Made by a program: the position numbers and the translations under genes. Shown piece by piece: positions 12,130 to 37,924 of a stretch of DNA of 38,319 nucleotides (position 1 is the first letter of the stretch; each line of letters opens with the position of its first letter). The notes below the pieces were generated by a model. The model did not search any database. It saw only the letters and a program-made list of their open reading frames with translations, and was not told where the DNA came from. Source of the DNA: Clostridiales bacterium (GTDB lineage: Bacteria; Bacillota; Clostridia; Lachnospirales; Lachnospiraceae); the NCBI GenBank assembly GCA_012523775.1, contig JAAYTK010000088.1, positions 1 to 38,319 on the forward strand. The letters run 5' to 3'.

Positions 12130-12130
12130 A

Positions 12131-22513: not shown

Positions 22514-22524
22514 ATCATAATATC

Positions 22525-22567: not shown

Positions 22568-22663
22568 ATTGAAAATGTAATGATAAATTCTCCTCATCGT
22601 ATTTTTCTGCAAATAATCCTTATAATTTGAATTCATCAAGGGCTTGCCCATCAAATAAAAGAT

Positions 22664-22690
22664 GTTTCATGTAGTATACATGGGTTTCAT
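22664..22690 (+). promoter_or_regulatory. direct repeat upstream of precursor promoter, possible LytTR operator
   Basis: GTTTCAT occurs at 22664-22670 and again at 22684-22690, start-to-start 20 nt, and ends at the first base of the -35 box. LytTR/AgrA regulators bind two short direct repeats about two helical turns apart just upstream of the -35, and a LytTR regulator is encoded in this cluster. The link is inferred from position; the 7-mer is not a textbook AgrA box. Confidence 0.4.
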
Positions 22691-22718
22691 TGAGTCAAAA
22701 AATGGTTATCCATATAAT
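22690..22718 (+). promoter_or_regulatory. sigma-A promoter of the thiopeptide precursor
   Basis: TTGAGT (22690-22695), exactly 17 nt, then perfect TATAAT (22713-22718). It leaves a leader of about 120 nt before the precursor ATG. Apart from this, the direct repeat, the terminator and the 14-bp repeat, the 333-nt gap 22514-22847 holds nothing else I can identify. Confidence 0.78.
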
Positions 22719-22748
22719 GGCATTGTAAATAACATTTCAAGGATAGGT

Positions 22749-22762
22749 ATTGCATTGACCCA
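22749..22762 (+). repeat. left arm of 14-bp inverted repeat flanking the precursor
   Basis: ATTGCATTGACCCA. It is the exact reverse complement of 23062-23075, and similarity extends imperfectly a few bases on both sides. It lies downstream of the promoter and upstream of the precursor ribosome site. Confidence 0.85.
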
Positions 22763-22847
22763 ATTAATAATGAACGTAATAAGATTAAGCATTAATTAAG
22801 AAAAAACCAAAATCCAGACTACATATTAAAAAAGGAGGAAGCAAATT

Positions 22848-23033
22848 ATGAAGAATGAGTTATTTAACGGAATCGAGGATATCGAGATAATCGAAGTATC
22901 AGAGGCATCTTTACTTGGTGAGACTGCTGCAACCAGCGGTTCCAGTTCTTGTGGAAGCTGCTCATGCTGCGGTTCATCATCCTGCATCAGCTGTGGCGGC
23001 GGCAATGCTGCTACAATGGAAGCAGCAAGATAG
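22848..23033 (+). CDS. thiopeptide-type (thiazolyl peptide) bacteriocin precursor
   Basis: A 61-residue RiPP precursor. The leader (about 1-29) is acidic with Ile/Glu-rich IEDIEIIEVSEASLLGETAA, the style of thiopeptide leaders. The core region (about 30-52) is Ser/Cys/Gly only apart from one Ile: Cys at 35, 38, 40, 41, 46 and 49, and Ser at 30, 32-34, 37, 39, 43-45 and 48. Cysteines would become thiazoles and some serines oxazoles or dehydroalanines through the downstream enzymes. After the last Cys there is Gly3 and an unmodifiable-looking NAATMEAAR tail, which is unusual. AAAAGGAGGAAGCAAATT precedes the ATG, a strong ribosome site, as expected for a highly made substrate. Confidence 0.88.
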   Translation: MKNELFNGIEDIEIIEVSEASLLGETAATSGSSSCGSCSCCGSSSCISCGGGNAATMEAAR

Positions 23034-23061
23034 TATTTGATTTATTACCTTCAGAGTTAAG

Positions 23062-23075
23062 TGGGTCAATGCAAT
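23062..23075 (-). repeat. right arm of 14-bp inverted repeat flanking the precursor
   Basis: TGGGTCAATGCAAT, perfect inverse of 22749-22762. It lies in the 78-nt gap between the precursor stop and the ABC ATPase start, so the two arms enclose the whole precursor gene and its ribosome site. Confidence 0.85.
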
Positions 23076-23111
23076 TAACTATATAGGTTTGATAGAGAGG
23101 TGATTGTTGTT

Positions 23112-23834
23112 ATGAGTTTAATCGAAGTTAAAAATGTCTATAAATCGTATGGTGAAAAGAAAGTTTTAAAAAATGTCTCTCTGGAGATTAACAAAGGAGA
23201 AGTCGCTGCAATCATCGGGCCAAACGGCACAGGCAAGACAACTCTTATGGAAATCATGATGACATTACGAAAGGCAGATAACGGCGATATTGAGATTATG
23301 GGTATGAATATAAGTGAGGAAAAGTCAATAGATGCAATACGAAGCCAATTGGGAGTTATCTTCCAGGAAGGCGGAATGTATAACTTTATGAGGCTTAAGG
23401 AGGCATTGGATCTGTTTGCCAGCTTCTATGATGTTCCCAAGGATAAGGTAAACCGTTTGGTCGAAGAGTTTGACCTGGGTCCATATATGAATACCAAGTA
23501 TCATAAGATGTCCGGCGGCTGGAAGCAGAGGTTCCTATTGGCGATAGCTTTTCTTCATGATCCGGAGCTTCTGTTTTTAGATGAGCCTACAACAGGACTT
23601 GATCCAAAGGCAGCACAGACTCTGTGGAACAACATAAAAGGCAGTAAAGATGAGAACAGGACCATTGTACTTACTACACATTCCATGGAGGAAATTGAAC
23701 GGTACTGTGACCGTGTAATTGTACTTAAAGCAGGCGAAGTGGTGGCTAATGATTCACCGAAGAGCTTAATTAAAAAGTACAATAAAGAATTTTTCACTGA
23801 TGTTTATTTTCATTTAGTAGAAGGTGGTGCGTGA
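23112..23834 (+). CDS. ABC transporter ATP-binding protein (exporter of the peptide)
   Basis: A 240-residue ATPase of the drug/bacteriocin exporter type. It has Walker A GPNGTGKTTLMEI, Q-loop FQEGG, signature KMSGGWKQRFLLAIAFLHDP, Walker B ELLFLDEPTTGLDP and the switch His in TTHSMEE. The signature reads MSGGW, a small variant of LSGGQ. I chose the ATG at 23112 because GAGAGGTGA lies about 8 nt upstream; the in-frame GTG at 23100 overlaps that site. Its stop overlaps the permease start (TGATG). It probably exports the mature peptide and may also give self-protection, since no other immunity gene is seen. Confidence 0.93.
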   Translation: MSLIEVKNVYKSYGEKKVLKNVSLEINKGEVAAIIGPNGTGKTTLMEIMMTLRKADNGDIEIMGMNISEEKSIDAIRSQLGVIFQEGGMYNFMRLKEALDLFASFYDVPKDKVNRLVEEFDLGPYMNTKYHKMSGGWKQRFLLAIAFLHDPELLFLDEPTTGLDPKAAQTLWNNIKGSKDENRTIVLTTHSMEEIERYCDRVIVLKAGEVVANDSPKSLIKKYNKEFFTDVYFHLVEGGA

Positions 23835-24580
23835 TGAATAATTATAGCAAAGTTTTAACAAAGCAGGTTAAATATGATTTAATTATTTTCTTTCGGGAGC
23901 CCTTCTTTGCTTTACCGATTTTGCTGTTACCCGGGGTGTTTTTTGTCTTATATGCAGGAATGTATGCCAGAAACGGTATGGATGTAGACACCTTTGGCGG
24001 ATATATTCCAATGTATATGCTTCTTATTTCTTTTTTAACAGTGTTTTTTAATATCGGTACCCAGTATGTGACGGATCGTGAAATTGGAATTATAAAGAGG
24101 CTGATAATGTCTCCAATTAAAATTTATAATGTCATACTGACATATTTGATCCGTGGATTACTTATATCTATCATGGGATTTTTTGAAATGATTTTTCTTG
24201 CGACAGTTGTATTCAGTATACCCTTAAGCAATAACATGATTATATACTTCCTAAGCTTTTGTATAATGGTTGGCGTTATGATGTTGATAAGTCTGGCAAT
24301 CCATGGTTTCTTCAAGAATTCCAGACAAGTCACACCCTTTACAATAATAATATTCCAGTATGTACTGTTTGCATCAGGCATGTTAATTCCGGTATCTAAG
24401 ATGGTCCTGCCTCTCAGGATTCTTGTTTATTTTAATCCGGTATATCATATGAACCAGATTTTAATGAGGGTGTGGTATGGTAAATGGCCTGATATTGTAA
24501 ATATAGCGGCATTGGCTGTTGTGATAATTATATGCGGCATAATCTTTAAGATTCAAAAGCAGTTTAAAACGGATAAATAG
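23834..24580 (+). CDS. ABC-2 type transporter permease
   Basis: A 248-residue membrane protein with about six hydrophobic helices, beginning with a short cytoplasmic segment and FFREPFFALPILLLPGVFFV, the amphipathic start typical of ABC-2 permeases. Later parts include VTDREIGIIKRLIMSPI and the closing helix AALAVVIIICGIIFKI. It would form the channel for the ATPase encoded just before, with which it overlaps by one base. No peptidase domain is fused to either subunit, so leader removal is not done by this transporter. Confidence 0.92.
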   Translation: MNNYSKVLTKQVKYDLIIFFREPFFALPILLLPGVFFVLYAGMYARNGMDVDTFGGYIPMYMLLISFLTVFFNIGTQYVTDREIGIIKRLIMSPIKIYNVILTYLIRGLLISIMGFFEMIFLATVVFSIPLSNNMIIYFLSFCIMVGVMMLISLAIHGFFKNSRQVTPFTIIIFQYVLFASGMLIPVSKMVLPLRILVYFNPVYHMNQILMRVWYGKWPDIVNIAALAVVIIICGIIFKIQKQFKTDK

Positions 24581-24616
24581 AGGAGGAACTGACAATAGAT
24601 AACGGAGGTTAAGCAA

Positions 24617-27139
24617 TTGGAAAGAGTGTTATTTCCCTATTTTATTGAACGGAGTACCAATATTCCCAAAAAAGTAATGGAAAGCTTCTCGAATAAGGAG
24701 CTACCGGAGTATATTGACAGACTCGAAGAGGCGAAGGCTGTGTTAGAGGCGGTCGTGGAGAATACCACAGGAACTCTTGAAAAACAATATGCAAGCTATA
24801 AGAACAATAAGTTACTTAATTATAAGAGAAAGGTCTTTAACCACAAGGACATTAAAGAGATTGACGAAGAGCTGGATTCAATCAGCAGGAATGTCTTGGT
24901 GGAGTATAAATGTGCGTTTGAAAAGCTTGGAAATCTGAAACGGGAGTTTGAGGAAAGCTATCAAAGCACTTATGAAAAGAACAGAATGCAGCTTTATGAT
25001 TTTTTTACCGTCAATCAGGAAATTCCTAAGGCATTTCCCTTAATTAATAAGAATATGGATCATAAATTTAAAAAGTATATCGGGACACCGGTGGAAGAGC
25101 ATAATGCAGATATCCGTAAACTGGATCATCAATTAATCCGGTTACTGAGCAGAGCTACTATGAAGACAAGTCCCTTTAGTTATCTGACATCCATTTGTCT
25201 TTCCAAAAACAATTATCAGTCGGAGACGGGTAAAGAAAGGGAGCCCATTTGTGAGATTAATAACTACATTATTAAACTGATATACGATCATTTGGTGCTA
25301 CTGCCTGCCTTCGCGGTTCAGTGTAATTACCGTATCAGTGCGTATCATCGTTACGAGACCTATTATGTGTTCTTAGGACAGGAGGATTATGAGAAGGGGA
25401 AGGTCTATAAAACCGTAGATTGGAGTAAAACCATAGCCCGTAACAAGCTCTTAGATCTAATTATTGACCGTTACGCAGATAAGAGCTTTTCTTACAATGA
25501 ACTGGGAGATTTTTTAGGCTCTTTGGGTCTTTCTGAAGAAAAAATTCCTACGTATATTCTTAATACCCTCCTGAAGAACCGAATAATCACCAATGCAAAT
25601 ATTATAGATGAGACCCATGGAGATATCTTTGCCGAATTTTATAAGAAGGTAGAGAGCATGAAGGATGATGAGAGCGGTAAGCTGGAGCTTATTTGTAATT
25701 TGGTTCGCAAATTAGAAGTAAGCGTGAAAGACTTTGCATTAGCCGATTGGGAAGAAAGATTTCGAATAATTCATATTATAGATTCTTTAATTAAGGAACT
25801 GTCAAAAGAAATTAACAAGGATTTCGTTCATGACATTCTTCTATATGAGGATACCATATATCGTAATATGAAGAAGCCTGTTGATATTGATGAAAGATTC
25901 TTAGAAAACATATCACAGCTACAAAAATATTCCAGAATCTTTGATCAATCTTATCCTGTATTCCTACGATTCTCAGAAATGTTTTATCAAAGGTTTGGAG
26001 AAGCCGAGATAAGAGCAGACAACCTGGAAGTATATCAGGAGTTTGTCAAAGCAGGAAGCTCTATGACCGAGGTATGGAAAGACACATTGACAGAACAGCA
26101 GGAGAGTAACAATGCCAATATGCAACGGATTTACGAGATGAAGAAAAGATTCAAGGAATTCGTGCTAAATTTAAAAGAAAACAAAGGCTCTGTTAATATA
26201 AAGGAATTTATCGATCGGGAAGTGGCCGAGAACGAGGACCTGATTTCCGAGGATGATAATTCCTCTACTGTGTTTTTCCAGAAGGGACAGGATGGTTATG
26301 TTATTAATAAGATTTATAACGGAAAACTAATTTTCTTTTCACGTTTTATAAAGCTTTTCGAAGAAGTAACAGAAAGTGACGAGTATCGAAGCTATATTGA
26401 TAAGGTATTTGGTAATAAGTCAGTGGAGATTACGGAATGCTTTGGCTTTAATGCAAATGTACATATACCGGCAGCCAAGAAACGGCTGGTCCTTCCATTA
26501 ACGGACAGGAATGATCCAACGCCGGAAGATATTGAACTTTCAAAATGTTATTTCAAATATTGCACTGAGACAGACAGAGTAAAGCTATATCACGATGAGT
26601 TGGGAGAAATCAAAGTAGAATATCTTGGGAGCCTTGCCTACTATCTGCTTCCTACAATAGTAAAGACCTTATTAGGATTAAATCCGTCAACACGTTTTGA
26701 CCCGGCATATATGAACTTCTGGAGTTTGGAGCATGAGGATGGATTGGTAATGGATCGTGTACCTGAAATAGTGTACGACAATATAGTTATAATCAGAAAG
26801 CAATGCTTAATTAGAAATATATTCGATATGAACAAGTCGGCTACGGATTTATATTATGATGTGGTAAAAGAATTTAAGCAACAGGGATTTCCGACCAAGT
26901 TCTTTATTAAGGCATATATTAATAAACCGGGATTTGAGTATCTAAATATGGGCAGGACACAACTAAAGCCGCAGTACATAGACTTGGAGAATGTTCTCCT
27001 GTTCAAGGAATTTTGTACGAAGCTTGAGAAGGAAGAAATAATCATTATAGAAGAAATGATGCCCTACAACGAAGATGAGGATTATATTCACGAATATCAA
27101 ATAGAATACTCATCATTAATAAATCGGACCAAGCAATAA
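24617..27139 (+). CDS. LanB-type dehydratase N-domain protein (tRNA-Glu-dependent Ser/Thr dehydration)
   Basis: An 840-residue protein of the lantibiotic dehydratase N-terminal family. Members of the split type found in thiopeptide clusters glutamylate Ser/Thr side chains using glutamyl-tRNA; a separate C-domain protein then eliminates glutamate to leave dehydroalanine. The marker motif is HQLIRLLSRATMKTSPFSYL (about 167-186). No C-terminal SpaB-C domain is fused, in keeping with the separate candidates at 27154-28242 and 32966-33835. The start is TTG, with GGAGG 8 nt upstream; no ATG is better placed. It ends 14 nt before the next gene. Substrate should be serines in the precursor core. Confidence 0.85.
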   Translation: MERVLFPYFIERSTNIPKKVMESFSNKELPEYIDRLEEAKAVLEAVVENTTGTLEKQYASYKNNKLLNYKRKVFNHKDIKEIDEELDSISRNVLVEYKCAFEKLGNLKREFEESYQSTYEKNRMQLYDFFTVNQEIPKAFPLINKNMDHKFKKYIGTPVEEHNADIRKLDHQLIRLLSRATMKTSPFSYLTSICLSKNNYQSETGKEREPICEINNYIIKLIYDHLVLLPAFAVQCNYRISAYHRYETYYVFLGQEDYEKGKVYKTVDWSKTIARNKLLDLIIDRYADKSFSYNELGDFLGSLGLSEEKIPTYILNTLLKNRIITNANIIDETHGDIFAEFYKKVESMKDDESGKLELICNLVRKLEVSVKDFALADWEERFRIIHIIDSLIKELSKEINKDFVHDILLYEDTIYRNMKKPVDIDERFLENISQLQKYSRIFDQSYPVFLRFSEMFYQRFGEAEIRADNLEVYQEFVKAGSSMTEVWKDTLTEQQESNNANMQRIYEMKKRFKEFVLNLKENKGSVNIKEFIDREVAENEDLISEDDNSSTVFFQKGQDGYVINKIYNGKLIFFSRFIKLFEEVTESDEYRSYIDKVFGNKSVEITECFGFNANVHIPAAKKRLVLPLTDRNDPTPEDIELSKCYFKYCTETDRVKLYHDELGEIKVEYLGSLAYYLLPTIVKTLLGLNPSTRFDPAYMNFWSLEHEDGLVMDRVPEIVYDNIVIIRKQCLIRNIFDMNKSATDLYYDVVKEFKQQGFPTKFFIKAYINKPGFEYLNMGRTQLKPQYIDLENVLLFKEFCTKLEKEEIIIIEEMMPYNEDEDYIHEYQIEYSSLINRTKQ

Positions 27140-27153
27140 TGGAGGGTATGAGC

Positions 27154-28242
27154 ATGGCAAAGCTGGATAAATACAAAAAGGCTAAGATATATTTCTTTGG
27201 AAATGAGGAAGAAAAGCAAAAATTCCTTAAGGAATTTGTGGCTCCTTATTTTAAAAGGAAAATCCCCGGAAGATACTTTATTAACAGAGATTGGAACGGG
27301 GGTCCTAACTATGAAATTATATTCAGCAGCAGGCTTATAGATGAGAAGGAGCTTCAGGAAGAGGTGTTTTCCTTCTGCAAAAAGAAGGGATTTTCATGGA
27401 CCAGGGAGCAGATTGAAGATAATTTGGCTATTTACCGTAAAAATCAACAGAATCTTCTACAGATGGAGCAAAAGAAAGGCATTGGTACCCCTATTGAGAG
27501 AGAGAACCACCTAAGGGTTGTGATAGAGCCGTTAAATGAAGAATATTATCGCAGTACTTATAACTCCTCGGAGCATGTGAAACTGCATTTTAAGAGCAGG
27601 TTCCTATTGCAGCCGTCAATTGAGAAAACACTAAAAAGAATCACCGAAAAGGATGACCTTCTGATTCTCGTCATAAATTTATTCAGAATAACAATGAATC
27701 TGTTTCAATATGGCGAAAAATATGCAAGCGTTATGTATTATTCCAATATTGCAGGAGTGTTTGCTATAGCCAAGCAGTATAACGCTGAAAGCTATCTAAG
27801 GGAGAATTATAAGAAGCTGTATAATAGGCTGAATATTGACCGATTGGATACGCTTTCGGTAGATGAAGAACTCCTAAGTGGTTATCGGAAGGCATGGACT
27901 GCTATATATGAGTTAAGTCTGAAGCTATATCAAAAAGGAGGATTCTCTGAAGAGGGGTATCTCAGCGTAGAAGAACAAGGAAACAGGATGAAAAGCAATG
28001 TATCCGGTATCGGAAGTGAGTTTCATGAGGTATTAATCTCTGAGGAATCCATCGACCGGATGATTACCAGTGAGACACATCTTGTGTTTCGTTCTATCAC
28101 TAATTTGCTATATAATATCCTGCCAACGTTAAATATAAATTTTCTCGAAAAGAATTTCTGCTGTTATGCAATAACGGAGTTCATCGCAAAAAAATACAAC
28201 ACCTCCTGGAAGGAAATTTTCAAAGAAAGGATAATTAGTTGA
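27154..28242 (+). CDS. divergent thiopeptide-type LanB C-domain protein, candidate pyridine-forming cyclase
   Basis: A 362-residue protein. The early RYFINRDWNGGPNYEIIFSS looks like the YWxGGPHxRxRF opening of the LanB C-domain/thiopeptide-ocin family, but the RYGG motif of glutamate-eliminating members is absent. In characterised thiopeptide systems two such proteins act together: one eliminates glutamate, the other (TclM/TbtD type) performs a formal [4+2] cycloaddition between two dehydroalanines to make the central pyridine and release the leader. Since 32966-33835 keeps RYGG, this one is the candidate cyclase by elimination; that is inference. I chose ATG 27154 because GGAGGG lies 7 nt upstream; two earlier ATGs sit inside or too close to it. 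Confidence 0.55.
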   Translation: MAKLDKYKKAKIYFFGNEEEKQKFLKEFVAPYFKRKIPGRYFINRDWNGGPNYEIIFSSRLIDEKELQEEVFSFCKKKGFSWTREQIEDNLAIYRKNQQNLLQMEQKKGIGTPIERENHLRVVIEPLNEEYYRSTYNSSEHVKLHFKSRFLLQPSIEKTLKRITEKDDLLILVINLFRITMNLFQYGEKYASVMYYSNIAGVFAIAKQYNAESYLRENYKKLYNRLNIDRLDTLSVDEELLSGYRKAWTAIYELSLKLYQKGGFSEEGYLSVEEQGNRMKSNVSGIGSEFHEVLISEESIDRMITSETHLVFRSITNLLYNILPTLNINFLEKNFCCYAITEFIAKKYNTSWKEIFKERIIS

Positions 28243-29804
28243 TGAATATTAAATATAAGAAAAATTGTCAGCTGTATTATGATGAGAAAGAAAAGGCAAC
28301 GTTCATAGTTAAAAGGAACGCTAAGTATATGATTAAAAATAATCAAGAGGACTATGATTTGCTACAAAGCATCATCGGAAAGTCAGTGGATAAAATCGCG
28401 GTGGATAATGTCATAGAAAATGATAAAAAAGCACTTCAATATATAAAGCTGTTGCTGGATAGGGGAATTCTGTATGCGGATCAGGATAAATACTATCCGA
28501 TAGAGCATGAATTTCAGGATTATATTATAAGCAACTTTGATGACCATTATAAGGTTCTAGATTTTATCAGCCAAAGTAGAATCGCGATAAAAAACGATCC
28601 GCAACTTACCTCCTTATATAACGGAAAGGGAATCTGGGCAAGTAATGTTGAGGGGGTGTATGATGATATTATCCATGAATTTAATGTGTTTATCGGTGAT
28701 TTTGATGAAAAAGAACTGGGAGTTCTATTGGATAATAACAGGCATGTTCTGCTTCTTAGGAAAATTGGAGGAGCCTGCGCGATCTTATATATGAACAGAT
28801 ACGATGAAAATCTTTTAGACCAATTTAAGAAATTCTATATTAACAGTTCATCGGAATCCCCCTTCGGCAATAAAATACTTCCTATAAATATACTGATGCA
28901 TTTGCTTGAGAATATATTTGTAAAGGGAAGTAAGAATCTTAAATTCATTACGGCGGATGCGACCGTTCAACTGTTTCACTTAAAGGAGATTGACCGTGAT
29001 ACTCTTAAGTATTATGACCGGACGTTGGTAGCAAAAAAGGATAATTTGGCTATAATCCGTGAGATTGAGGAGATGACAAAGACAAACCCGAACTTTGTAA
29101 AGGATACGAATAAAGAAAATGCCACACTATGCCATGCACCTATATGCAATTACGAGGTATGCTTCGGCTATAACCTGAATAACCATAGAAGCTCAAGGTA
29201 TCACGAGGATAATGCGATGGCGGGAATACTGGCAATTACTGATGGAATAGAGCATGCCCTGAGGACGATGAAGCCTTCCGAGCACTGGGTATGTGCGACC
29301 TCTGTGGAAGAATATTATCTTAAGGGATATCTAAGTCTTTTGGCAACGATCGACAAACCTAAACCTGCCAATGAGGTGACCATATCATCGACAGGAATCA
29401 GGTCCTTATTAGATTTCATCCATACCTGCTATGGTCTTGAGCTTAAGTTGTATTTTCAGAATATATATAACAATGTGGTTGGAAACATATATATTACAGA
29501 TCTGAAGGGAGACATTATTTATAAAGCTAAGAATGTATGGCAGTCGGAAAAGGCAATAATGGAAGGTCTCTATGATATCATCGGAAGATGCGAGAACGAG
29601 CAGGACTTAACAAATAAGGAAAGACTATCCTATGTGAATGAGAAAAGCGTTAATATAGAGGATCGAACTACAGAGGAGATGCTTACATTGATTAGCGACT
29701 ATTTTACTTCAAGATCGATACTGGTGGATGAGAAGCCCTGGGCATACCAGAGCTGCTTTGAGACAACAGGATTACATATCGGAAGTTTCTATTTTGTAAA
29801 GTAA
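28242..29804 (+). CDS. large azole-cyclodehydratase partner, RRE plus degenerate E1-like (ocin-ThiF type)
   Basis: A 520-residue protein I recognise only in outline. The first 90 or so residues (FIVKRNAKYMIKNNQEDYDL ... IKLLLDRGILYADQ) look like a winged-helix RiPP recognition element that grips the leader peptide. The middle (GVLLDNNRHVLLLRKIGGAC) resembles a worn ThiF/E1 fold. The C-terminal part contains EDNAMAGILAITDGIEHALR, reminiscent of regions found in 'thiazole-containing bacteriocin maturation' proteins. Cys occur in CHAPICNYEVC, possibly metal-binding. The role proposed is to deliver the precursor to YcaO. ATG 28242 overlaps the preceding TGA by one base. It could instead be a cluster-specific unknown. 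Confidence 0.5.
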   Translation: MNIKYKKNCQLYYDEKEKATFIVKRNAKYMIKNNQEDYDLLQSIIGKSVDKIAVDNVIENDKKALQYIKLLLDRGILYADQDKYYPIEHEFQDYIISNFDDHYKVLDFISQSRIAIKNDPQLTSLYNGKGIWASNVEGVYDDIIHEFNVFIGDFDEKELGVLLDNNRHVLLLRKIGGACAILYMNRYDENLLDQFKKFYINSSSESPFGNKILPINILMHLLENIFVKGSKNLKFITADATVQLFHLKEIDRDTLKYYDRTLVAKKDNLAIIREIEEMTKTNPNFVKDTNKENATLCHAPICNYEVCFGYNLNNHRSSRYHEDNAMAGILAITDGIEHALRTMKPSEHWVCATSVEEYYLKGYLSLLATIDKPKPANEVTISSTGIRSLLDFIHTCYGLELKLYFQNIYNNVVGNIYITDLKGDIIYKAKNVWQSEKAIMEGLYDIIGRCENEQDLTNKERLSYVNEKSVNIEDRTTEEMLTLISDYFTSRSILVDEKPWAYQSCFETTGLHIGSFYFVK

Positions 29805-29832
29805 GTATAATCGGAAATAATGGAGGATTGGT

Positions 29833-31593
29833 ATGAAAGCGGTGCAGATAAATTCATTAAAACAATATAACAGGCTTCGGGAAAATCGAAGGGAGTTTGT
29901 TCCGGTCATCATAAGCGATAATTTAATCTTTGTAGGACCTTCCTACAGACAGGGTCAAACAAACAGCTGTCTAGGTTGTCTGCTAAACAGCTTAAAGGAC
30001 AATGACAGTGCATACTATCCTCTGTTAACGGTGTTATTATCTGATACGCATAAGCCTTACACCAATCGGACTATGACATTGGAAAATGACCTGGTGATGT
30101 CCTACGAGGAGGATACGCAGAACAAGTTTCATATTATAAACAGAGGAAACATGAGTGTTAAAAGCTATCCGGTATATCAGCATCCGGCCTGTGAAATCTG
30201 TGAAAGGAAGGAAAAGGCCGAGGACATATTAAAAAAGATCAGGTATGACTATGTGTTTAATGAGAGATTTCGTGAAAAATCTCCTGAAGACATAATGAAC
30301 GTCATAGATGGTTTTAAGAGCTTAATCAATCCCCATACAGGCATTGGTCAGTATCTGCTTCGGGATGTCGATGCAAAGATTATGCCAATGTATTTTATTA
30401 AATCTGATTTGGCAGGACGGGAATTTTATTCCTACGGTCGCACCTCCGATTTACAGAATTCAAAATATGCGGCTATATTTGAGATGCTGGAAAGATATGC
30501 TTCAATGGTACCCCATAATAGGGATTGTCTTTTTGGCTCATATAATGATCTAATCAAGGACGGACAAGAGGTGATTAGTCCTATGAGGCTTAACATTCCC
30601 GAGAGCATGCTGGCTCCCGGATATGGTAATTACAGTGATGACAGGAAATACAGATGGAAGAAGGTGCTGGAAATAAACTCTGGAAGTTTCGTCTACCTTC
30701 CTGAGCAGGCCATTTATTATGAAAGTCAGTTAATCAGTAAGGAGAAGAGGTTTGTCTACGAGACCTCCAATGGATGTGCCTTGGGTGGCTCCCTTGAAGA
30801 AGCTATTGTCTATGCACTGTTTGAATTGGTGGAAAGGGACAGCTTCCTGGTTCATTGGTACAACCATATCGCACCGATTAAGCTGGATGTAAGCACATTA
30901 CAGAACGACAACATATCCAGACTGGTACGGTATATGGAAAACAAAGGCTTTCGGGTACATATATTTGATATTACCATGGAGACAAACATTCCAACCATCT
31001 GGGCAGCAGTCGTTGATGAAGATTTTAATGGGAAGGTAAAATGCTACAATGCGGCAGGTGCACATATCAATCCTGAGAAAGCACTGGAGGGTGCCTTAGT
31101 AGAAGTGATAACCTCCGTTTTTGTCTATAACAATATATTGGAAAGCGGTAAAAACATAGATCTGACAAAAGCACTGGAGGGTGCACCCGATAAAGTGTTA
31201 AATATGGAGGATCATGTATATTTCTATGCAAATAAAAAGAATTTTTCTTATATTGAGAAGTTCTATGAAAATGATGTAGTACTGGATTTCAAGCAGGCAT
31301 TTGCCTCCTGGTATCAGAGAAAAAACAGTAACTATAACTTTAAGGATATACTGGACAGGGTGTCTTTATATCATAAGGAGATATATGTCTCTTATCTCTA
31401 TACAGAGGTTAACAAAAAACTAGGCCTGGAATGTGTAAAGGTGATTATACCTTCGATGCTTACGATGACCTTTGGCAACGGCAACAAACGCATCAATTAT
31501 GAACGTGTCCAAAAGGGACCGGTTTTGTCGGGAATAAGGTGTAACCCTATTGCGATTGATGATATTTATGATATTCCACATCCGTTTCCGTAA
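29833..31593 (+). CDS. YcaO cyclodehydratase (azoline synthase)
   Basis: A 586-residue YcaO enzyme. Using ATP it activates the peptide amide next to Cys or Ser so the side chain closes to a thiazoline or oxazoline. The N-terminal part (about 1-130) keeps an E1-like remnant: NLIFVGPSYRQGQTNSCLGC and HPACEIC, giving C46-x2-C49 and C120-x2-C123, a likely zinc site. The YcaO domain follows with AIFEMLERYAS and EAIVYALFELVERDSFLVHW, Glu/Arg-rich ATP/Mg2+ motifs. The protein ends in PHPFP, matching the PxPxP terminus needed by azoline-forming YcaOs. GGAGG precedes the ATG. It is the central enzyme for the six core cysteines. Confidence 0.93.
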   Translation: MKAVQINSLKQYNRLRENRREFVPVIISDNLIFVGPSYRQGQTNSCLGCLLNSLKDNDSAYYPLLTVLLSDTHKPYTNRTMTLENDLVMSYEEDTQNKFHIINRGNMSVKSYPVYQHPACEICERKEKAEDILKKIRYDYVFNERFREKSPEDIMNVIDGFKSLINPHTGIGQYLLRDVDAKIMPMYFIKSDLAGREFYSYGRTSDLQNSKYAAIFEMLERYASMVPHNRDCLFGSYNDLIKDGQEVISPMRLNIPESMLAPGYGNYSDDRKYRWKKVLEINSGSFVYLPEQAIYYESQLISKEKRFVYETSNGCALGGSLEEAIVYALFELVERDSFLVHWYNHIAPIKLDVSTLQNDNISRLVRYMENKGFRVHIFDITMETNIPTIWAAVVDEDFNGKVKCYNAAGAHINPEKALEGALVEVITSVFVYNNILESGKNIDLTKALEGAPDKVLNMEDHVYFYANKKNFSYIEKFYENDVVLDFKQAFASWYQRKNSNYNFKDILDRVSLYHKEIYVSYLYTEVNKKLGLECVKVIIPSMLTMTFGNGNKRINYERVQKGPVLSGIRCNPIAIDDIYDIPHPFP

Positions 31594-31614
31594 TGTATAA
31601 AGAGGTGTAAAGGG

Positions 31615-32937
31615 ATGAACTTCTATGAAAGACTAACTAAATATCGATACAATTATAAAAATTCATACAGCTCCTTTAAATTCATAGATTTTATGAATAC
31701 GGATATGGAAGGAACTTACGATTCTTATCCGGATAAAAGCAATGAGAATTCAATTAGGCAAATAGTAAGATCGGTTTTCTCTTATCGAAGATATGAACCT
31801 TGCAATCCTTATGTTTTTCACAAGGTAGTCCCCTCTGCCAGGAATGTTCATCCTAATGAAGCATTTCTGATTGAGGATGGGTTTATAAGCCGGTTTAATT
31901 CCAAGGCAAATCAATTTGAGATGCTGGGATATTCCCGTCATTACGAAGGAAGGCTGTGGATAATTATAGCTTCAGAGCTATGGAGAATCATGAAGTTTTA
32001 CGGAGATTTCGGACTGGCTCTATCGCTTCTGGATGTTGGCCATATACAGGCCCACGTAAAATTAAAGCTTTTGGATTCAGGATATGAGAGGGCCAGATTA
32101 CTATATGGAGTTGACACTAAGAAGCTGATTCAGAGTCTTGGCTTTTCAAAAAACTCTGCCTGTATCGGTGCGGTAATCGATTTATCTGAGTATGTAAGTG
32201 AAATAGAATTCTTGTCAGAAAAGGATCGGGTAAAGACAGGGATACAACAACGTAAATTCAATTATGACGATGAAGTCGGCAGTTATCCGCAGGTGATAGA
32301 ATTCCTTCATTACAGGGACGAGCCTAAGACAAAACCTATTGCGTATCATGAGGGAGCAAATAAACTGTGTAAAGACTTAGCATATGAGATATATAGAAAT
32401 TCCGGACACAACACACCGGGACTATTCAGTACCACAGAAAGACTTCCTACGGCCACAGCTAAACGATATGCGGAAGGAATCGCCGAATATATAAAATACT
32501 TTCTCGGTGACAAGTCAGGGTTTTGGGCAGGTGTATTATACCGTGCATTAGACGGAGAGGACTATCTTATAATTGTTTCGGAGGCCGGGACTGAGAGGAT
32601 TAATAAATGCTGTAAGATTCATAGAGAAGAGTTGCTTCATGATACCTTTGAACATATTAACATGAACAGTATTCCCTTAGATATTTTCCTGATATATTCT
32701 ATTGATCCATATAGCACACAGGAGGAAAATATTCGAAATGCGCATATCGGGGCCGGTGAGATAAGTCAATATATCAGTCTTATGGCAGCTAAGGATGGAT
32801 TTTTTGCAAGGCCCATGAAAAATTTTAATGATAATTATATATCAAAGCTGATTGGTATTGACAGTAACAGAGAAAGCATAGTGTATTCAACGATTATTGG
32901 CAGAGAAAACCATTACAATTATGTTTTAAAGCTGTAA
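31615..32937 (+). CDS. SagB/TbtE-like FMN azoline dehydrogenase, two-domain form
   Basis: A 440-residue nitroreductase-superfamily protein, predicted to oxidise azolines to azoles with FMN. It looks like two tandem nitroreductase folds: an N-terminal half with FSYRRYEPCN, VPSARNVHPNEAFLIEDG and GLALSLLDVGHIQAHVKLKL, and a C-terminal half with LFSTTERLPTATAKRYA, NAHIGAGEISQYISLMAAKD and GFFARPMKNFNDNYISK. Tandem-domain dehydrogenases of this size occur in thiopeptide clusters. The second SagB-like gene (33832-34617) is a single domain, so either they form a heteromer or act on different rings. Confidence 0.8.
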   Translation: MNFYERLTKYRYNYKNSYSSFKFIDFMNTDMEGTYDSYPDKSNENSIRQIVRSVFSYRRYEPCNPYVFHKVVPSARNVHPNEAFLIEDGFISRFNSKANQFEMLGYSRHYEGRLWIIIASELWRIMKFYGDFGLALSLLDVGHIQAHVKLKLLDSGYERARLLYGVDTKKLIQSLGFSKNSACIGAVIDLSEYVSEIEFLSEKDRVKTGIQQRKFNYDDEVGSYPQVIEFLHYRDEPKTKPIAYHEGANKLCKDLAYEIYRNSGHNTPGLFSTTERLPTATAKRYAEGIAEYIKYFLGDKSGFWAGVLYRALDGEDYLIIVSEAGTERINKCCKIHREELLHDTFEHINMNSIPLDIFLIYSIDPYSTQEENIRNAHIGAGEISQYISLMAAKDGFFARPMKNFNDNYISKLIGIDSNRESIVYSTIIGRENHYNYVLKL

Positions 32938-32965
32938 GCAATCATTCTGCGGAAGGGAGGATTAA

Positions 32966-33835
32966 ATGAACTGGAAAGCAATCCATTTTTATATACATGA
33001 TAATAAGTTTCACACAACTTTTCTTACGGAATACTTAAAGCCTTTCATAGAAAGGCAGCAAAAGAAGGGACATCTGAAGAAATTCTTTTATATAATTTAT
33101 TGGCAAGGCGGTAACCATATAAGATTTCGTTATATCTCTGATTGTGAGCAAGAGATTAAAGAAGGACTGATAAACTGCTTTCGTGATTTCAAGAAAATCT
33201 ATAGACCTTCCGAGGTAATGGACAAGGAAACGTATTATAAGATTTTTTCTAATAATAAGGAAGAGGTTACGGAGCTTCAATGGATTGAGGATGGAAATTA
33301 CCTTGAGGTACCATATGAGCCGGAATATTCACGATATGGCGGAACAGAAGCGATTGGTTACTCTGAGAATGTTTTTCAATGCTCCAGCTGTTATGCATTG
33401 GAAATTCTGGAACAGGCAAAGAATAATTATGGATTAAAGCTTTTTGCAGCATTGGACATGATGGGCATTGCTTTAGAAAATATCGAGAAAAAGGAAGAAT
33501 TCTTAAAATATTATTATGATTTTTGGAGGGATTTTAATGAGCAGAAGGAGGAGCCGGGGGCTTATACTAAGGGGTTGTTTGAGAAATATAAACATTACAA
33601 TGAACGGACAAGCGGGAGAAATGTTGAATTTTACAGTGCATGGAAGGAACAGCTGTGTAAGAATCTCGATGAGGCGGTCAGGGTCCAAAATACATTTGAC
33701 AATGGGTGGCAAGCCAAGAATTTAATATTGGCATCCTTATTACATATGAATCATAACCGACTGGGTATTTATCCAAGATACGAAAGCATTATGGCAAAAA
33801 TAATGCTGTTATGCGCAAAGGAGGCGATTGTGTGA
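32966..33835 (+). CDS. thiopeptide-type bacteriocin biosynthesis protein, LanB C-domain (glutamate elimination)
   Basis: A 289-residue SpaB-C/thiopeptide-ocin domain protein. Family marks are the opening MNWKAIHFYIHD, FFYIIYWQGGNHIRFRY, then EPEYSRYGGTEAIGYSENVF with the RYGG motif and following SS, and near the end LASLLHMNHNRLGIYPRYE. In LanB systems this domain binds glutamylated Ser/Thr and eliminates glutamate to give dehydro-residues, here complementing the N-domain protein at 24617-27139. GGGAGG precedes the ATG. Its stop overlaps the next start (GTGA), so it is coupled to the SagB gene. Confidence 0.85.
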   Translation: MNWKAIHFYIHDNKFHTTFLTEYLKPFIERQQKKGHLKKFFYIIYWQGGNHIRFRYISDCEQEIKEGLINCFRDFKKIYRPSEVMDKETYYKIFSNNKEEVTELQWIEDGNYLEVPYEPEYSRYGGTEAIGYSENVFQCSSCYALEILEQAKNNYGLKLFAALDMMGIALENIEKKEEFLKYYYDFWRDFNEQKEEPGAYTKGLFEKYKHYNERTSGRNVEFYSAWKEQLCKNLDEAVRVQNTFDNGWQAKNLILASLLHMNHNRLGIYPRYESIMAKIMLLCAKEAIV

Positions 33836-34617
33836 GTGAATTGTTATGGGATTTTAGTGAGAAAGCAGAGGATAAAGGCAGAATCTATCAATTCTATCAC
33901 ATTAATTCGAAGCATTCGCCCAGAACTCAGAGCTTTCAGGCTCCAAAGATGAACTATTCTAAGGATTATAAAGAGGACAGCAATTATCCAGTGGTAGCCA
34001 AGGTTCCATTACTGGAAGAAACAAAGGATACCGGATATAGTTTGTATTCTGCTCTAATGGAACGTCGGACCTCCTGGAGCTTTCAGAGAGCCACTATGAC
34101 GGATGATGAGATATTAATGTTCTTAGCCTATTCCTTTGGAGTCAGCGATAAGGAACAAAACACTAAGACTTACCCTTCCGGAGGAAGAATGTATCCGGTT
34201 GAGATATATCTGATACCCAATATAAGCATTCAGCAAAGTTCCAAAATATTTAGTAAGGACAAAGTTTTCCGCTATAATGTTGTAACAAGAGATATTGAAA
34301 TTATGGCAGACGGCAATATAAATTTATTGGATTCTCTGACATCCTCAACGGATATCGGCACAATGACCTTTGCGGATACGCAGTTTCTTATTTGTCTGGT
34401 CGGAAATTATACGCACATCAATGAAAAATATCATTCACTTACATATCGGTTGATTCAGATGGAGCTGGGACATATCGGTCAGAATATTATGCTTACGGCA
34501 GCAATGCTGAAGCTGAATACGGTTCCCCTAGGTGGATTTTTTGAGGACAGGGTAAACAGGTACCTAAACATAGATGGTATAACGAAACAGACATTATATA
34601 TATTTGCAGCCGGGTAA
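33832..34617 (+). CDS. SagB-type azoline dehydrogenase (nitroreductase family)
   Basis: A 261-residue single-domain dehydrogenase that should oxidise thiazolines or oxazolines to aromatic azoles using FMN. Motifs are LMERRTSWSFQRATMTDDEI, TYPSGGRMYPVEIYLI and YRLIQMELGHIGQNIMLTAA followed by PLGGFFEDRVNRYLNI, all classic for SagB. The start is GTG at 33832: AAAGGAGG lies 8 nt upstream and the GTGA overlap couples it to the preceding stop. The in-frame ATG at 33811 would put the ribosome site inside the gene. It differs strongly from the longer dehydrogenase at 31615-32937. Confidence 0.92.
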   Translation: MSELLWDFSEKAEDKGRIYQFYHINSKHSPRTQSFQAPKMNYSKDYKEDSNYPVVAKVPLLEETKDTGYSLYSALMERRTSWSFQRATMTDDEILMFLAYSFGVSDKEQNTKTYPSGGRMYPVEIYLIPNISIQQSSKIFSKDKVFRYNVVTRDIEIMADGNINLLDSLTSSTDIGTMTFADTQFLICLVGNYTHINEKYHSLTYRLIQMELGHIGQNIMLTAAMLKLNTVPLGGFFEDRVNRYLNIDGITKQTLYIFAAG

Positions 34618-34639
34618 TATTCTATAATAGGAAGGAAGT

Positions 34640-35680
34640 ATGATTATGGAGCTTGCAACGATTGTAAAATTAAAGGATAAATATCTGTTTTTTAATGACG
34701 GAAATATGATTTGCGTTTATGATATGGATGAAAACCGGGTTAAACTTAAGCTTGCCTGCAAGGATGTAATAGATACATATGCCCTAAAAAGAGAGTTGGC
34801 AAAACCCCATACACTTCACTGGCTAAGTAAGAAAAAATATTTTAGTTGGCTTGGGGTATTAATCAGTAAATATAATGATCTGTTCGAGGTTGTGGGGGAG
34901 GAAAACCTACTGTGGGAACGCACAAAAAATAATCTTACAGATATTATATCAAGAGAGAACTATGCCGAGAATGTGGAGATTTCCATGGATTTTTCTGATA
35001 GTACTCTGGTGCTCTATGGATTGTCCGGAATCAATGTGACTATAGCAGAAGCCGTGAGAGATTTAAACTATAAGAGCATTATATTGATTAATCGTGATGA
35101 GGTGGTGGAGGCAGAGGATATCGAGGACGAAACCGGAATATATACCTATAAGGATGTTTTACAAAAAAAGAAGGATATACTCTCCGATTATTTTAATAAG
35201 AGGAATGAAAAGGTTAAAATCATTAATTTGCAGGATCTAAATGATCTGACTGTAATAGATAAAAGCATTTTTATAATCGAAAACAACAGTCTGAGTAAGG
35301 AGGAGTTACTGGGAATTAATCGATTTGTCACCAAGCACAGAAAATTAGCTCTTTTCTTTCAGATGCAGCCGGATAAATTGATTTTTGGACCGCTTGTGGT
35401 CGGAGGAGAGAGTGCCTGTCTTGAGTGTCTGGAGCATGGAGAACTTTTTGAGAAATGTTATGGGATAAAGAGTGTTCCTGTTGATTCGGTGTTCAGATAT
35501 ATGCTTATGTTCTTAATAAAGAGAACCTTATGCTATGTGAAGGAGAATGATCTTTATATACTGCTTGGGGATGTGCAGATACCGATTAATAAGATATTTA
35601 AGATTGATCGATTTACTATGCGTGGTGAATTTGACTATATATACCGGGATGTTGACTGTACCTGCTCTTTAGATGATTAG
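34640..35680 (+). CDS. E1/ThiF-like cyclodehydratase partner with zinc site
   Basis: A 346-residue protein of the ocin-ThiF/TOMM leader-binding group. The N-terminal 90 residues may be a RiPP recognition element. A Rossmann-like stretch (STLVLYGLSGINVTIAEAV ... IILINRDEVVEAEDIE) follows, and then the hallmark FGPLVVGGESACLECLEHGE, equivalent to the PLVxPGxTACLxCL motif of YcaO partners. The end VDCTCSLDD gives a CxC that, with the CLEC, would make a four-Cys zinc site. The glycine-rich ATP loop of true E1 enzymes is reduced, as is usual here. Start is ATG 34640 or 34646; GGAAGG is nearer ideal for 34646. It is the last biosynthetic gene before a terminator. Confidence 0.78.
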   Translation: MIMELATIVKLKDKYLFFNDGNMICVYDMDENRVKLKLACKDVIDTYALKRELAKPHTLHWLSKKKYFSWLGVLISKYNDLFEVVGEENLLWERTKNNLTDIISRENYAENVEISMDFSDSTLVLYGLSGINVTIAEAVRDLNYKSIILINRDEVVEAEDIEDETGIYTYKDVLQKKKDILSDYFNKRNEKVKIINLQDLNDLTVIDKSIFIIENNSLSKEELLGINRFVTKHRKLALFFQMQPDKLIFGPLVVGGESACLECLEHGELFEKCYGIKSVPVDSVFRYMLMFLIKRTLCYVKENDLYILLGDVQIPINKIFKIDRFTMRGEFDYIYRDVDCTCSLDD

Positions 35681-35706
35681 AATATAATAGTATTCAGACA
35701 GAGATT

Positions 35707-35738
35707 ATCGCCGTAACCGTTTTGGTTATGGCGATTTT
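35707..35738 (+). terminator. terminator at the end of the biosynthetic operon
   Basis: Stem ATCGCCGTAACC (35707-35718) pairs with 35724-35735 (one G:U), 5-nt loop, then TTT. It lies 26 nt after the last biosynthetic gene and before the regulatory genes' own promoter. Confidence 0.78.
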
Positions 35739-35758
35739 GCTAATATTCCCAAAAAGTA

Positions 35759-35879: not shown

Positions 35880-36593
35880 ATGAAATACATAATAGGAGTT
35901 TGTGATGATGAGAAATTGCAGGTCAAAGTAAACGGTCTATACATAAAGGAAATTGCCTTACGTAATAATTGGGATGTAGCTATGGTTCCGTTTAACACGG
36001 GAAGGGCGGTTCTTGAATATTTAGCAACGAGGAAATTGGATGTTTTATTTTTGGATATCGATCTTGGTAATGAATCGGGTATAGGAATCGCGGAAAAAAT
36101 TGCAGTTAAATATCCGGAAGTTGTGGTTATATTTATTACCGGACATCGTGAATTTGCCAATGATGCCTTTGATGTAGATGCGATGGGATACATTGTAAAG
36201 CCGGTAGAAGAGAAGAAGATGGAAAGGGTACTTAAAAAGACCCTGACACATGTCGAAGCAATTCGCTCTAAAAAACCCAGTGAAACCATAGTGGTTACAG
36301 TTGAAAATCTAAAGAAGAAAATTCTTCAGAATGATATTCTCTATATTGAGCGTCAACAGGCGAAAAGCATAATTGTTTTAAAAGGAAAAAAATACGGTGT
36401 GTATGAGACAATTACCTCTCTGGCAGAAAGGCTCACGGACAGCTTTCTAAGAATCAGTCAGAGCTATATTGTGAACAAATCCTTTATTGCAGGCATTGAA
36501 GGAAACAGAGTATTGCTTAAGAACGGAATGGATATTTCCATTGGCAGGACGTATCGCAAGGATGTTCTAGAAGCCTATTACCAGGACAAATAA
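35880..36593 (+). CDS. LytTR-family (AgrA-like) response regulator
   Basis: A 237-residue regulator. The receiver domain (about 3-120) has CDDE with the acidic pair, phospho-acceptor D59 in VLFLDIDLG, and Lys in GYIVKPVEEKKM. The LytTR DNA-binding domain (about 140-237) has NDILYIERQQAKSIIVLKGK, FLRISQSYIVNKSFIAGI and ISIGRTYRKDVLEAYY. LytTR proteins such as AgrA and PlnC commonly switch on bacteriocin and quorum genes. GGGGAGG precedes the ATG. The AgrC-like kinase gene starts 17 nt after its stop. The precursor promoter and perhaps its own are the likely targets. Confidence 0.94.
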   Translation: MKYIIGVCDDEKLQVKVNGLYIKEIALRNNWDVAMVPFNTGRAVLEYLATRKLDVLFLDIDLGNESGIGIAEKIAVKYPEVVVIFITGHREFANDAFDVDAMGYIVKPVEEKKMERVLKKTLTHVEAIRSKKPSETIVVTVENLKKKILQNDILYIERQQAKSIIVLKGKKYGVYETITSLAERLTDSFLRISQSYIVNKSFIAGIEGNRVLLKNGMDISIGRTYRKDVLEAYYQDK

Positions 36594-36610
36594 TAACAGA
36601 GGTGGAATTA

Positions 36611-37921
36611 ATGGAAGAAAATCTCCATTTTATAACGGGTGTCCTTATATTCGTAGTGGATGCTTTCCTATGGCATAAACTGCTTTTCAGCATGTGCAAC
36701 TTTCGCTATGATAAGAAATTAAGAATCATCCCTCCGGCCATATGGTGTTTGGTATTTATATTAAGAAATCTTATTATGGAGATGGTTGACGGAGACACCT
36801 TAATAGAGATATTAAGGATACTGACTTTGCTGACAGGATTTATACTTGCCCTTGTTTTTTATCAAGACAAATTTTCAAAAATACTGATATGGAATATAGT
36901 ACATATATTATTAATGGCGGTATCAGAATTATTTACAATACTGATCTTATGGATTGGCACAAGGCAGCCGGTTGAGATGGTGATAAGTCAGGACAGGGGA
37001 TATTATGTCGGAACATTAATATCCAAGTTGCTGATGTTTGCAATCATATGGTTAATAACGATGAAGAAGGATCGTTACAGCGTGCTACTAAAAAAGGGAT
37101 TTATCGATATTATAATTCTGGGCATTATAATCACCATGGTGTATGCATATTCCGTTTATATAATTCGAAATCAGGAGGTTTTTTCCGGAGTCAGTAAGTG
37201 GTTCTTAAGTGGGTCCCTGATTGCTTTATTTATTATAGTGGCTCTGATTGTAAGAATTATGTTTCATTTGTTTCGGGCTGTAAAGCAGGAATTAGATGCT
37301 CAGCATAGGGTTCAAGAGCTCGAGATGGAACGGCAATTTTATACGGAGATGGAGAATCTGGTGTCTTCGTTAAGGGCGTTACGACATGATCTCAATAATC
37401 ATTTCAGTGTTATCAATGGATTATTAAGTGCAGGCCAGTATCAGGAGTGTCAACGGTATATGCAGGAGGTATATTCTGAAATGGATATGGCAAATTCCTT
37501 TGTATGCGTTGAGAACACAGCGGTTTCGATTTTAATTAATAATAAGATTAGCAAGGCAAAAAGCAAAGGTATAAAAATTGAAAGCCTGATTTCATTTGAT
37601 AATTTTTCTATGCCATATATAACAATCTGCTCTCTGATAGGTAATATTCTGGACAATGCAATCGAAGCTACGGAGAAAACAGAGGATAAATATATTCAGC
37701 TTATTGTTAAAGGAAAGAACGGGGAGTGTAAAATAAGCTGTGAGAACACCTATGCAGACAGGCCGATATTCAGTGACGGAAAATATCAGACATCAAAGAA
37801 GGATAAAAAAAATCATGGGATTGGACTTTCCAAGGTACGGGAAATCGTTAAGGAATATCATGGAACCATGGATATCCAAGTTGATGATACCTTCTTGATA
37901 TCATTAACATTGAAGGCATAA
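36611..37921 (+). CDS. AgrC-like GHKL sensor histidine kinase
   Basis: A 436-residue kinase with an N-terminal membrane region of about six helices (roughly residues 5-220), like peptide-sensing AgrC and ComD. A coiled segment (VKQELDAQHRVQELEMERQF) leads to H-box ALRHDLNNHFSVINGLL with phospho-acceptor His259, then a GHKL ATPase with N-box IGNILDNAIEATEK and G-box NHGIGLSKVREIVKEYHG. The short C-terminal ATPase lacks a classic HisKA domain, as in AgrC. ATG 36611 is chosen because AGAGGTGG is 7 nt upstream. It probably reads the thiolactone peptide encoded at 37992-38177. A shared terminator follows. Confidence 0.93.
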   Translation: MEENLHFITGVLIFVVDAFLWHKLLFSMCNFRYDKKLRIIPPAIWCLVFILRNLIMEMVDGDTLIEILRILTLLTGFILALVFYQDKFSKILIWNIVHILLMAVSELFTILILWIGTRQPVEMVISQDRGYYVGTLISKLLMFAIIWLITMKKDRYSVLLKKGFIDIIILGIIITMVYAYSVYIIRNQEVFSGVSKWFLSGSLIALFIIVALIVRIMFHLFRAVKQELDAQHRVQELEMERQFYTEMENLVSSLRALRHDLNNHFSVINGLLSAGQYQECQRYMQEVYSEMDMANSFVCVENTAVSILINNKISKAKSKGIKIESLISFDNFSMPYITICSLIGNILDNAIEATEKTEDKYIQLIVKGKNGECKISCENTYADRPIFSDGKYQTSKKDKKNHGIGLSKVREIVKEYHGTMDIQVDDTFLISLTLKA

Positions 37922-37924
37922 GAA

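Follow-up and report, generated by a model that had tools for sequence, protein, structure and literature searches.

A probable Agr-controlled thiopeptide operon with a lactazole-like core in a Lachnospiraceae bacterium

We describe a biosynthetic gene cluster on contig JAAYTK010000088.1 of a Clostridiales bacterium placed in the Lachnospiraceae (GCA_012523775.1, a 2.26-Mb assembly of 110 contigs); the window analysed is this whole contig (G000:C88), 38,319 bases. Its gene content points with high confidence to the thiopeptide class of ribosomally synthesised and post-translationally modified peptides. The explanation that we consider probable is a complete thiopeptide (pyritide) operon, likely under Agr-type control, whose product would be lactazole-like. 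Homology identifies a precursor, a split LanB dehydratase, a pyridine synthase, a YcaO protein, SagB, an ATP-binding cassette (ABC) exporter, and LytTR, GHKL and AgrD-like genes. A sequence-only reading of this DNA had proposed a thiopeptide-type cluster near the replication origin with machinery for azoles, dehydroalanine (Dha) and a pyridine, and family matches, profiles to solved homologues and the origin genes bear this out.

The precursor and ten enzyme and transport genes form a single plus-strand run (22848-35680) with all frames open, in the order precursor, ABC ATPase, permease, LanB-N, pyridine synthase, protein X, YcaO, 440-residue protein, LanB-C, SagB and SagC-like protein; regulators extend the locus to 37921. 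The genes named in the sequence-only reading lie where it placed them, in one direction, and so do its motifs (KTSPFS in the dehydratase, RYGG in the C-domain protein, a PHPFP end in YcaO and PSGGRMYPVE in SagB). The Pfam and TIGRFAM comparison that it called for had a mixed outcome. Four of the eleven proteins exceed a curated cut-off (precursor, YcaO, LanB-C and the small SagB); five match below it (ABC ATPase, permease, pyridine synthase, the large SagB relative and the SagC-like E1 protein), the ABC pair having been compared with NCBIfam models only; and LanB-N and the 521-residue protein X match no NCBIfam or Pfam model significantly. That seven of eleven fail to reach a curated cut-off counts against our explanation. 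The enzyme set recurs by sequence in a genus mate (G224) and in Caloranaerobacter azorensis, and BLAST recovers LanB-N, pyridine synthase, YcaO, the 440-residue protein, LanB-C and SagB in a second genome of the class (G763), whose cluster is more distant and has a somewhat altered gene order. Further comparisons were made with clusters on pBac115 (L010) and in Lactobacillus paragasseri JV-V03 (L011), which we take to be of micrococcin and lactocillin type; the Tcl names used below are likewise our assumption, and the records label most of these Tcl-type proteins hypothetical.

Both halves of a split LanB dehydratase were found, the C-type elimination protein over its cut-off (TIGR03891, 98.9 bits against 48.45, with a PF14028 match) and the N-type glutamylation protein by profile only. 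LanB-N matched PDB entry 6ec7 with E 1.6e-5 as a single sequence and E 7e-21 as a four-sequence profile. The putative [4+2] pyridine synthase was recognised by homology below its curated cut-off: it matched almost the full length of NF045556 (E 1.9e-9, 37.2 bits against 325), and its profile matched PbtD (5w98) across 67 residues with E 1.2e-5. The elimination motif H[ML]xxNR occurs in 7/7 LanB-C-type proteins (window, Caloranaerobacter, G763, Streptococcus salivarius, Actinomyces oris, micrococcin and lactocillin types) and in 0/6 pyridine-synthase candidates (those of the window, Caloranaerobacter, G763 and S. salivarius, with the micrococcin-type and lactocillin-type M proteins), both sets being drawn without G224. 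This distribution fits elimination by the former and cycloaddition by the latter; RYGG is present in five of the seven LanB-C-type proteins. The LanB-N profile also matches the goadsporin protein 9jhq (E 5.2e-7), and this match, like the pyridine synthase score under its cut-off, would suit a linear, goadsporin-like azole/Dha peptide in place of a macrocycle. We consider such a product very improbable: the pyridine-synthase homologue, lying between the dehydratase and X genes, is kept in all four clusters (window, G224, Caloranaerobacter and G763), and the precursor exceeds two thiopeptide cut-offs.

An azole branch is encoded by YcaO and a flavin mononucleotide (FMN) azoline dehydrogenase, each over its cut-off. 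YcaO scored 237.8 bits against 219.25 for TIGR03604, with a PF02624 match, and its N-terminal part weakly resembles the leader-binding model for thiazole/oxazole-modified microcins, TIGR03882 (E 9e-4, below cut-off). The small SagB scored 90.9 bits against 78.4 for TIGR03605, with a PF00881 match, and has P[SA]GG and PLGGF intact in each of the four clusters. Its larger relative of 440 residues matched the same model below cut-off (E 4e-12, 45.9 bits against 78.4), and its profile matched the counterpart proteins of the micrococcin-type and lactocillin-type clusters with 96.1% probability (E 2.8e-9). In this protein the PSGG site is changed in four of four clusters, to PSAR in the window, G224 and Caloranaerobacter and to PKAR in G763; the micrococcin-type counterpart keeps PSGG and is without PLGGF. 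There is perhaps an even chance that the 440-residue protein is a pseudo-dehydrogenase, a non-catalytic partner beside an active small SagB. The motif patterns are not universal, a point against this assignment: they miss the lactocillin-type protein and the S. salivarius SagB, so that only the PSGG change carries weight. The lost motif is also the one, indirect, pointer to a decayed or silent cluster. We think this most unlikely, with the frames open and the motif loss common to four clusters; moreover, ten genes compared with G224 show non-synonymous divergence (dN) of 0.06-0.29 with silent sites near saturation, amino-acid changes being far fewer.

The precursor exceeds the cut-offs of NF033400 (45.9 bits, cut-off 30) and PF19409 (38, cut-off 23.5) and falls just under that of TIGR03892 (21.7, cut-off 25). 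The sequence-only reading had held that the core matches no known thiopeptide; this does not stand, as residues 34-47 match residues 1-14 of lactazole A, from the laz cluster of Streptomyces lactacystinaeus, at 10/14 positions. The cores are ETAATSGSSSCGSCSCCGSSSCISCGGGNAATMEAAR in the window, ETAATSGSSSCGSCSCCGSTSCISCGSGDTSI and ETAATSGSSSCGSCSCCGSTSCISCGSGTTEVAAQ in G224, and ETGATSGSSSSGSCSCCGSSSCASCGGSAQITQR in Caloranaerobacter; the two G224 copies agree with lactazole A at 9/14 and Caloranaerobacter at 11/14. Among 20,000 whole-string shuffles, 2 reached the match of the window, 51 and 33 those of the G224 copies and none that of Caloranaerobacter; when only the Ser/Cys/Gly-rich part was shuffled, the values were 0.024% for the window, 0.5% for the first G224 copy and 0.007% for Caloranaerobacter. 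Among the relatives the ring part is kept and the tail varies, and relatives against the window show 8-10 silent and 1-2 amino-acid changes in 21 core codons. Our lactazole sequence and mass formula reproduced published m/z values: 701.203 against 701.20 for lactazole A, 692.197 against 692.20 for Dha4-lactazole and 710.208 against 710.20 for Ser10-lactazole (PMC7210931).

We lean towards ring closure between Ser34 and Ser45 (12 residues, giving a predicted 32-membered ring of the lactazole kind) because the core resembles lactazole A, including its Ser1...Ser-Ser-Ser-Cys pattern. The second ring serine would be Ser45 within S43-S44-S45-C46 (22974-22985). In lactazole, no product forms with S1A, S10A, S11A or S12A, and efficiency depends on Cys13 (PMC7210931); in the presumed register this minimal scaffold (Ser1, 10, 11, 12, Cys13) corresponds to S34, S43, S44, S45 and C46. 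All five residues are also present in Caloranaerobacter, and G224 has Thr at position 11. Position 2, the unmodified Trp2 of lactazole, is unmatched, with Cys35 in the window and G224 and Ser in Caloranaerobacter. The motif CGS[ST]SC occurs in six of seven precursors compared, the second precursor-like open reading frame (ORF) of G763 being without it, and its distance from the leader is the same in the window, both G224 copies, Caloranaerobacter and the first G763 ORF (G763a).

Several observations weigh against a lactazole-like register. Lactazole was chosen after the core had been seen, so the shuffle values overstate the likeness, and fair ones may be tens of times larger. G763a keeps CGSTSC but agrees with lactazole at only 5/14 in the same register (27% of shuffles), and its best match, 9/14 (55/20,000 shuffles), is in another register; the S. 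salivarius precursor also keeps CGSTSC, yet reaches 6/14 at best (73% of shuffles). Further, C38-S39-C40-C41 repeats the spacing of C9-S10-C11-C12 in the micrococcin-type core, Ser39 lies nine residues past Ser30, and the 440-residue protein encoded at 31615-32937 is TclN-like. Together with the S-G at the junction (S30-G31), invariant in 7/7 aligned precursors, these features would suit a 26-membered ring of micrococcin/thiocillin type from Ser30 to Ser39, in which azoles formed on Cys38 and Cys40 lie on either side of the pyridine and a long tail follows. We judge this unlikely: a micrococcin-like core was rejected on overall similarity, which at 5/14 is not above shuffles (9,166 of 20,000 reach it), and C-S-C is absent from both G763 ORFs and from S. 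salivarius, whereas G763a and S. salivarius retain CGS[ST]SC. The invariant junction may equally speak for some other register, such as Ser30 to Ser45 (16 residues, 44-membered) or Ser32 or Ser33 to Ser45. Lactazole enzymes tolerate rings of 14 to 62 atoms (PMC7210931) and pyritide rings of 14 and 17 are reported (PMC9247985); against this, known thiopeptides span 26 to 35 ring atoms (PMC7210931), and we give such a register about the same low probability as the 26-membered ring. The 12-residue, 32-membered ring is the reading that we carry forward.

These assignments suggest the following pathway. At high cell density the regulator pair would activate a promoter at 22690-22718. YcaO, aided by leader-binding partners (X and/or the SagC-like protein), would turn Cys residues, and Ser44, into azolines, which the small SagB would oxidise. 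LanB-N would attach glutamate from glutamyl-tRNA to Ser and LanB-C would eliminate it to give Dha, with the TclN-like 440-residue protein acting as a non-catalytic partner. The pyridine synthase would then link Dha34 and Dha45, releasing the leader as an amide, and the ABC pair would export the product, a 32-membered ring resembling lactazole that bears a peptide tail. The leader amide has a calculated monoisotopic mass of 3452.69 (Met retained), and a product with seven azoles and its whole tail would give [M+H]+ 2348.67, lower by 18.01 for each additional Dha.

Two members of the set are less readily assigned. The sequence-only reading had named two E1-like proteins, which holds for the one encoded at 34640-35680, where TIGR03603 matched with E 6e-7 (29.4 bits against 187.65) and no Pfam family did. 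It fails for the 521-residue protein X, which had 0.9% probability against the E1 group. X gave no family or PDB match of significance; in alignment it is 62% identical to its counterpart in G224, 31-32% in Caloranaerobacter and 17% in G763. By profile, likeness to TclI is weak (4.6%, or 5.4% for the N-terminal part), and a TclI-like X remains a guess from gene position. Since the X gene directly precedes that of YcaO, like TclI, our best guess is that X is possibly a leader-binding partner of YcaO. A further point against our explanation is that the G763 counterparts of X (495 residues) and of the SagC-like protein (285 residues) are assigned by position and were not found with the window proteins by BLAST or phmmer. 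An X profile that included the window and G763 proteins matched 3/391 class genomes, two of them profile members by construction; the match in the third (G717) reads as a chemotaxis-type protein and was dismissed as a false positive, leaving no further genome with X.

AgrC-like, AgrA-like and AgrD-like genes follow the enzymes, the AgrA and AgrC equivalog models being matched below cut-off and the AgrD subfamily model above it. Upstream of the precursor, direct repeats GTTTCATGTAGT (22664-22675) and GTTTCATTGAGT (22684-22695), 20 bp apart, overlap a candidate promoter with a -35 element TTGAGT (22690-22695), a 17-bp spacer and a -10 element TATAAT (22713-22718) that ends 130 bp 5' of the precursor. 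A similar repeat pair with TATAAT lies 5' of the first G224 precursor (position 2285 of L016), not of the second, and the pair was not found at the agrD-like promoter or 5' of the response regulator. As a class, promoter-like sites are about two standard deviations (sd) above expectation in the window (76 against a shuffle mean of 60.5, sd 7.6). We regard Agr-type quorum control of the cluster as reasonably likely, with the regulator predicted to bind at the repeats. It counts against this that agrB was not found in the assembly itself or in G224. Upstream of the agrD-like start, 142 bp of contig remain before its end at 38319, and the expected agrB would lie beyond; in G763, AgrB adjoins the kinase.

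Table 1. Features of the predicted thiopeptide locus (positions in the window; cut-offs are curated model cut-offs).
Feature	Coordinates	Strand	Match or basis
Putative regulated promoter	22664..22718	+	direct repeats, -35, -10
Thiopeptide precursor, 61 aa	22848..23033	+	leader residues 1-33; core from Ser34 (22947) in preferred register
Predicted core SCGSCSCCGSSSCISCGGGNAATMEAAR	22947..23030	+	register taken from likeness to lactazole A
ABC transporter ATPase	23100..23834	+	TIGR01188 E 5.5e-62, 209.8 bits against cut-off 312.45
ABC-2 type permease	23831..24580	+	weak: RbbA E 7.6e-6, PedC, SagH, DrrB; all below cut-off
LanB N-type glutamylation protein, 840 aa, KTSPFS	24617..27139	+	profile match to PDB 6ec7
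Predicted pyridine synthase ([4+2] macrocyclase), 367 aa	27139..28242	+	NF045556, PbtD homology
Protein X, 521 aa	28239..29804	+	no known family
YcaO cyclodehydratase, 586 aa, two N-terminal CxxC, PHPFP end	29833..31593	+	TIGR03604, PF02624
TclN-like SagB relative, 440 aa, PSGG changed to PSAR	31615..32937	+	profile match, TIGR03605 below cut-off
LanB C-type glutamate elimination protein, 289 aa, RYGG and HMNHNR	32966..33835	+	TIGR03891, PF14028
SagB FMN dehydrogenase, 268 aa, PSGG and PLGGF intact	33811..34617	+	TIGR03605, PF00881
SagC-like E1 protein, 346 aa, CLEC and CTC	34640..35680	+	TIGR03603
LytTR response regulator (AgrA-like)	35880..36593	+	PF00072, PF04397 over cut-off
GHKL sensor kinase (AgrC-like)	36602..37921	+	PF14501 over cut-off; AgrC model E 8e-18, below cut-off
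AgrD-like cyclic lactone autoinducer precursor	37992..38177	-	TIGR04223 24.8 bits over cut-off 19

When an 84,980-species collection was scanned with YcaO from the window, 24 stretches fitted a pattern, and relatives are encoded in two of them: JAGFXQ010000096.1 (L006, Bacillota bacterium isolate CTSoil_066), 72% identical, and Caloranaerobacter azorensis (L007; Tissierellia in NCBI taxonomy), 48%. L006 and the G224 locus (G224:C287) have the YcaO match at the same place and are counted as one. With the source genome included in each count, YcaO was found in 2/34 genus genomes and 1/392 order genomes, the pyridine synthase in 1/200 family genomes, and the precursor family in 2/34 genus, 2/391 class and 1/398 phylum genomes. 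The 200 family genomes came from as many genera, which suits Lachnospiraceae, the largest family of this kind. In a nine-row YcaO tree the window groups with G224 (support 100/99), these two with Caloranaerobacter (100/98) and the two known comparators with each other (100/99); the remaining forks are open or weak. The permease counterpart in G224 is 86% identical, and like genes were recognised by reading in Caloranaerobacter, where the set is split between two contigs and a LytTR gene adjoins the precursor, and in G763. G763 encodes two precursor-like ORFs, one over the family cut-off, with AgrB, kinase and regulator nearby; the second ORF (L019:10176-10334, minus strand) has a short core and no family match, and may be a degenerate copy or a different substrate. 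No YcaO relative was found on viral contigs, and plasmids held no match to the pyridine synthase or X and two weak partial Lactobacillus matches to the 440-residue protein. An Actinomyces oris plasmid (L012:16936-18007) encodes four precursors, with the Ser/Cys part the same in two and of other length or letters in the rest.

Compared by function, the laz cluster shares the chemistry set of the window: glutamylation, elimination, pyridine synthase, split YcaO and FMN dehydrogenase. It comprises five enzymes, one of which, LazF, is a fusion of the elimination and dehydrogenase functions (PMC7210931). Unlike LazF, the window has separate genes for LanB-C (32966-33835) and SagB (33811-34617), and it adds X, the TclN-like protein, an exporter and Agr-type regulators. 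The micrococcin-type and lactocillin-type clusters share homologous YcaO, elimination and LanB-N proteins and have the TclN-like protein in common with the window, but the micrococcin-type core is dissimilar, L010 has a ribosomal protein L11 gene in addition, the L010 stretch examined carries no annotated Agr-type gene, and no relative of X was found among the L010 and L011 proteins. Plasmid pSaLI10 of S. salivarius (L008, L017) shares the ABC pair, LanB-N, pyridine synthase, YcaO, LanB-C, SagB, response regulator and GHKL kinase, and its precursor shares the [ST]SGS junction and CGSTSC. It differs in having nine tandem near-identical precursors (L017:4038-5868), a second YcaO gene and an M20 peptidase, with no relative of X or of the 440-residue protein among the annotated proteins compared.

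The general kind of cluster is already known, because a putative thiopeptide cluster with three precursors in Clostridium cellulovorans 743B has been in print since 2014 (PMC4289311). By its description it resembles the present one as a thiopeptide cluster of a clostridial anaerobe; its authors report no cyclodehydratase (PMC4289311). One table in a 2026 paper on rumen isolates places 11 under a thiopeptide rule (PMC13289728). Among titles and the starts of abstracts we recognised no description of the present cluster, nor any paper pairing Caloranaerobacter with a thiopeptide or a lactazole-like thiopeptide with firmicutes; a large 2018 thiopeptide genome survey may list such clusters. As far as literature listings show, no earlier description covers a Bacillota cluster that combines a lactazole-like core with this set of enzymes. 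Lactazole-like peptides are said to make up nearly half of predicted thiopeptides (251 of 508), and as of 2020 they had one characterised member, no antibacterial activity and a function still unknown (PMC7210931). A lactazole-like core in Bacillota beside an exporter and a cell-density regulator opens a genetic route to the timing and purpose of such a compound's production, and the apparent pair of active and inactive dehydrogenases, like protein X, represents a testable change to known thiopeptide machinery. More speculatively, and with low probability, a Bacillota lineage may make lactazole-type macrocycles as quorum-controlled signals or narrow inhibitors, using a new synthetase composition in which a TclN-type dehydrogenase of ancestral origin has turned into a non-catalytic scaffold that accompanies an active single-domain SagB, and X, as a new protein family, serves as the leader-binding partner of YcaO.

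The cluster lies close to the replication origin. The genes dnaA, dnaN, recF, gyrB and gyrA occur in that order at 9270-18126, and GC skew changes sign near 9 kb; this region is the chromosomal origin. The genes to the left of the cluster are not the same in the window and in G224, so its position is not fixed. Among the translations read for 20000-38319, no integrase or transposase came to light. Immediately upstream lies a family 5 cellulase-type glycosyl hydrolase gene (21317-22513), closed by a terminator-like hairpin (22525-22561). Before it, a protein encoded on the minus strand (19826-21118) shows, on reading, paired CxxC motifs like those of a zinc ribbon; its TcaA-type match is weak, with E 1.8e-4 and a score well short of the cut-off.

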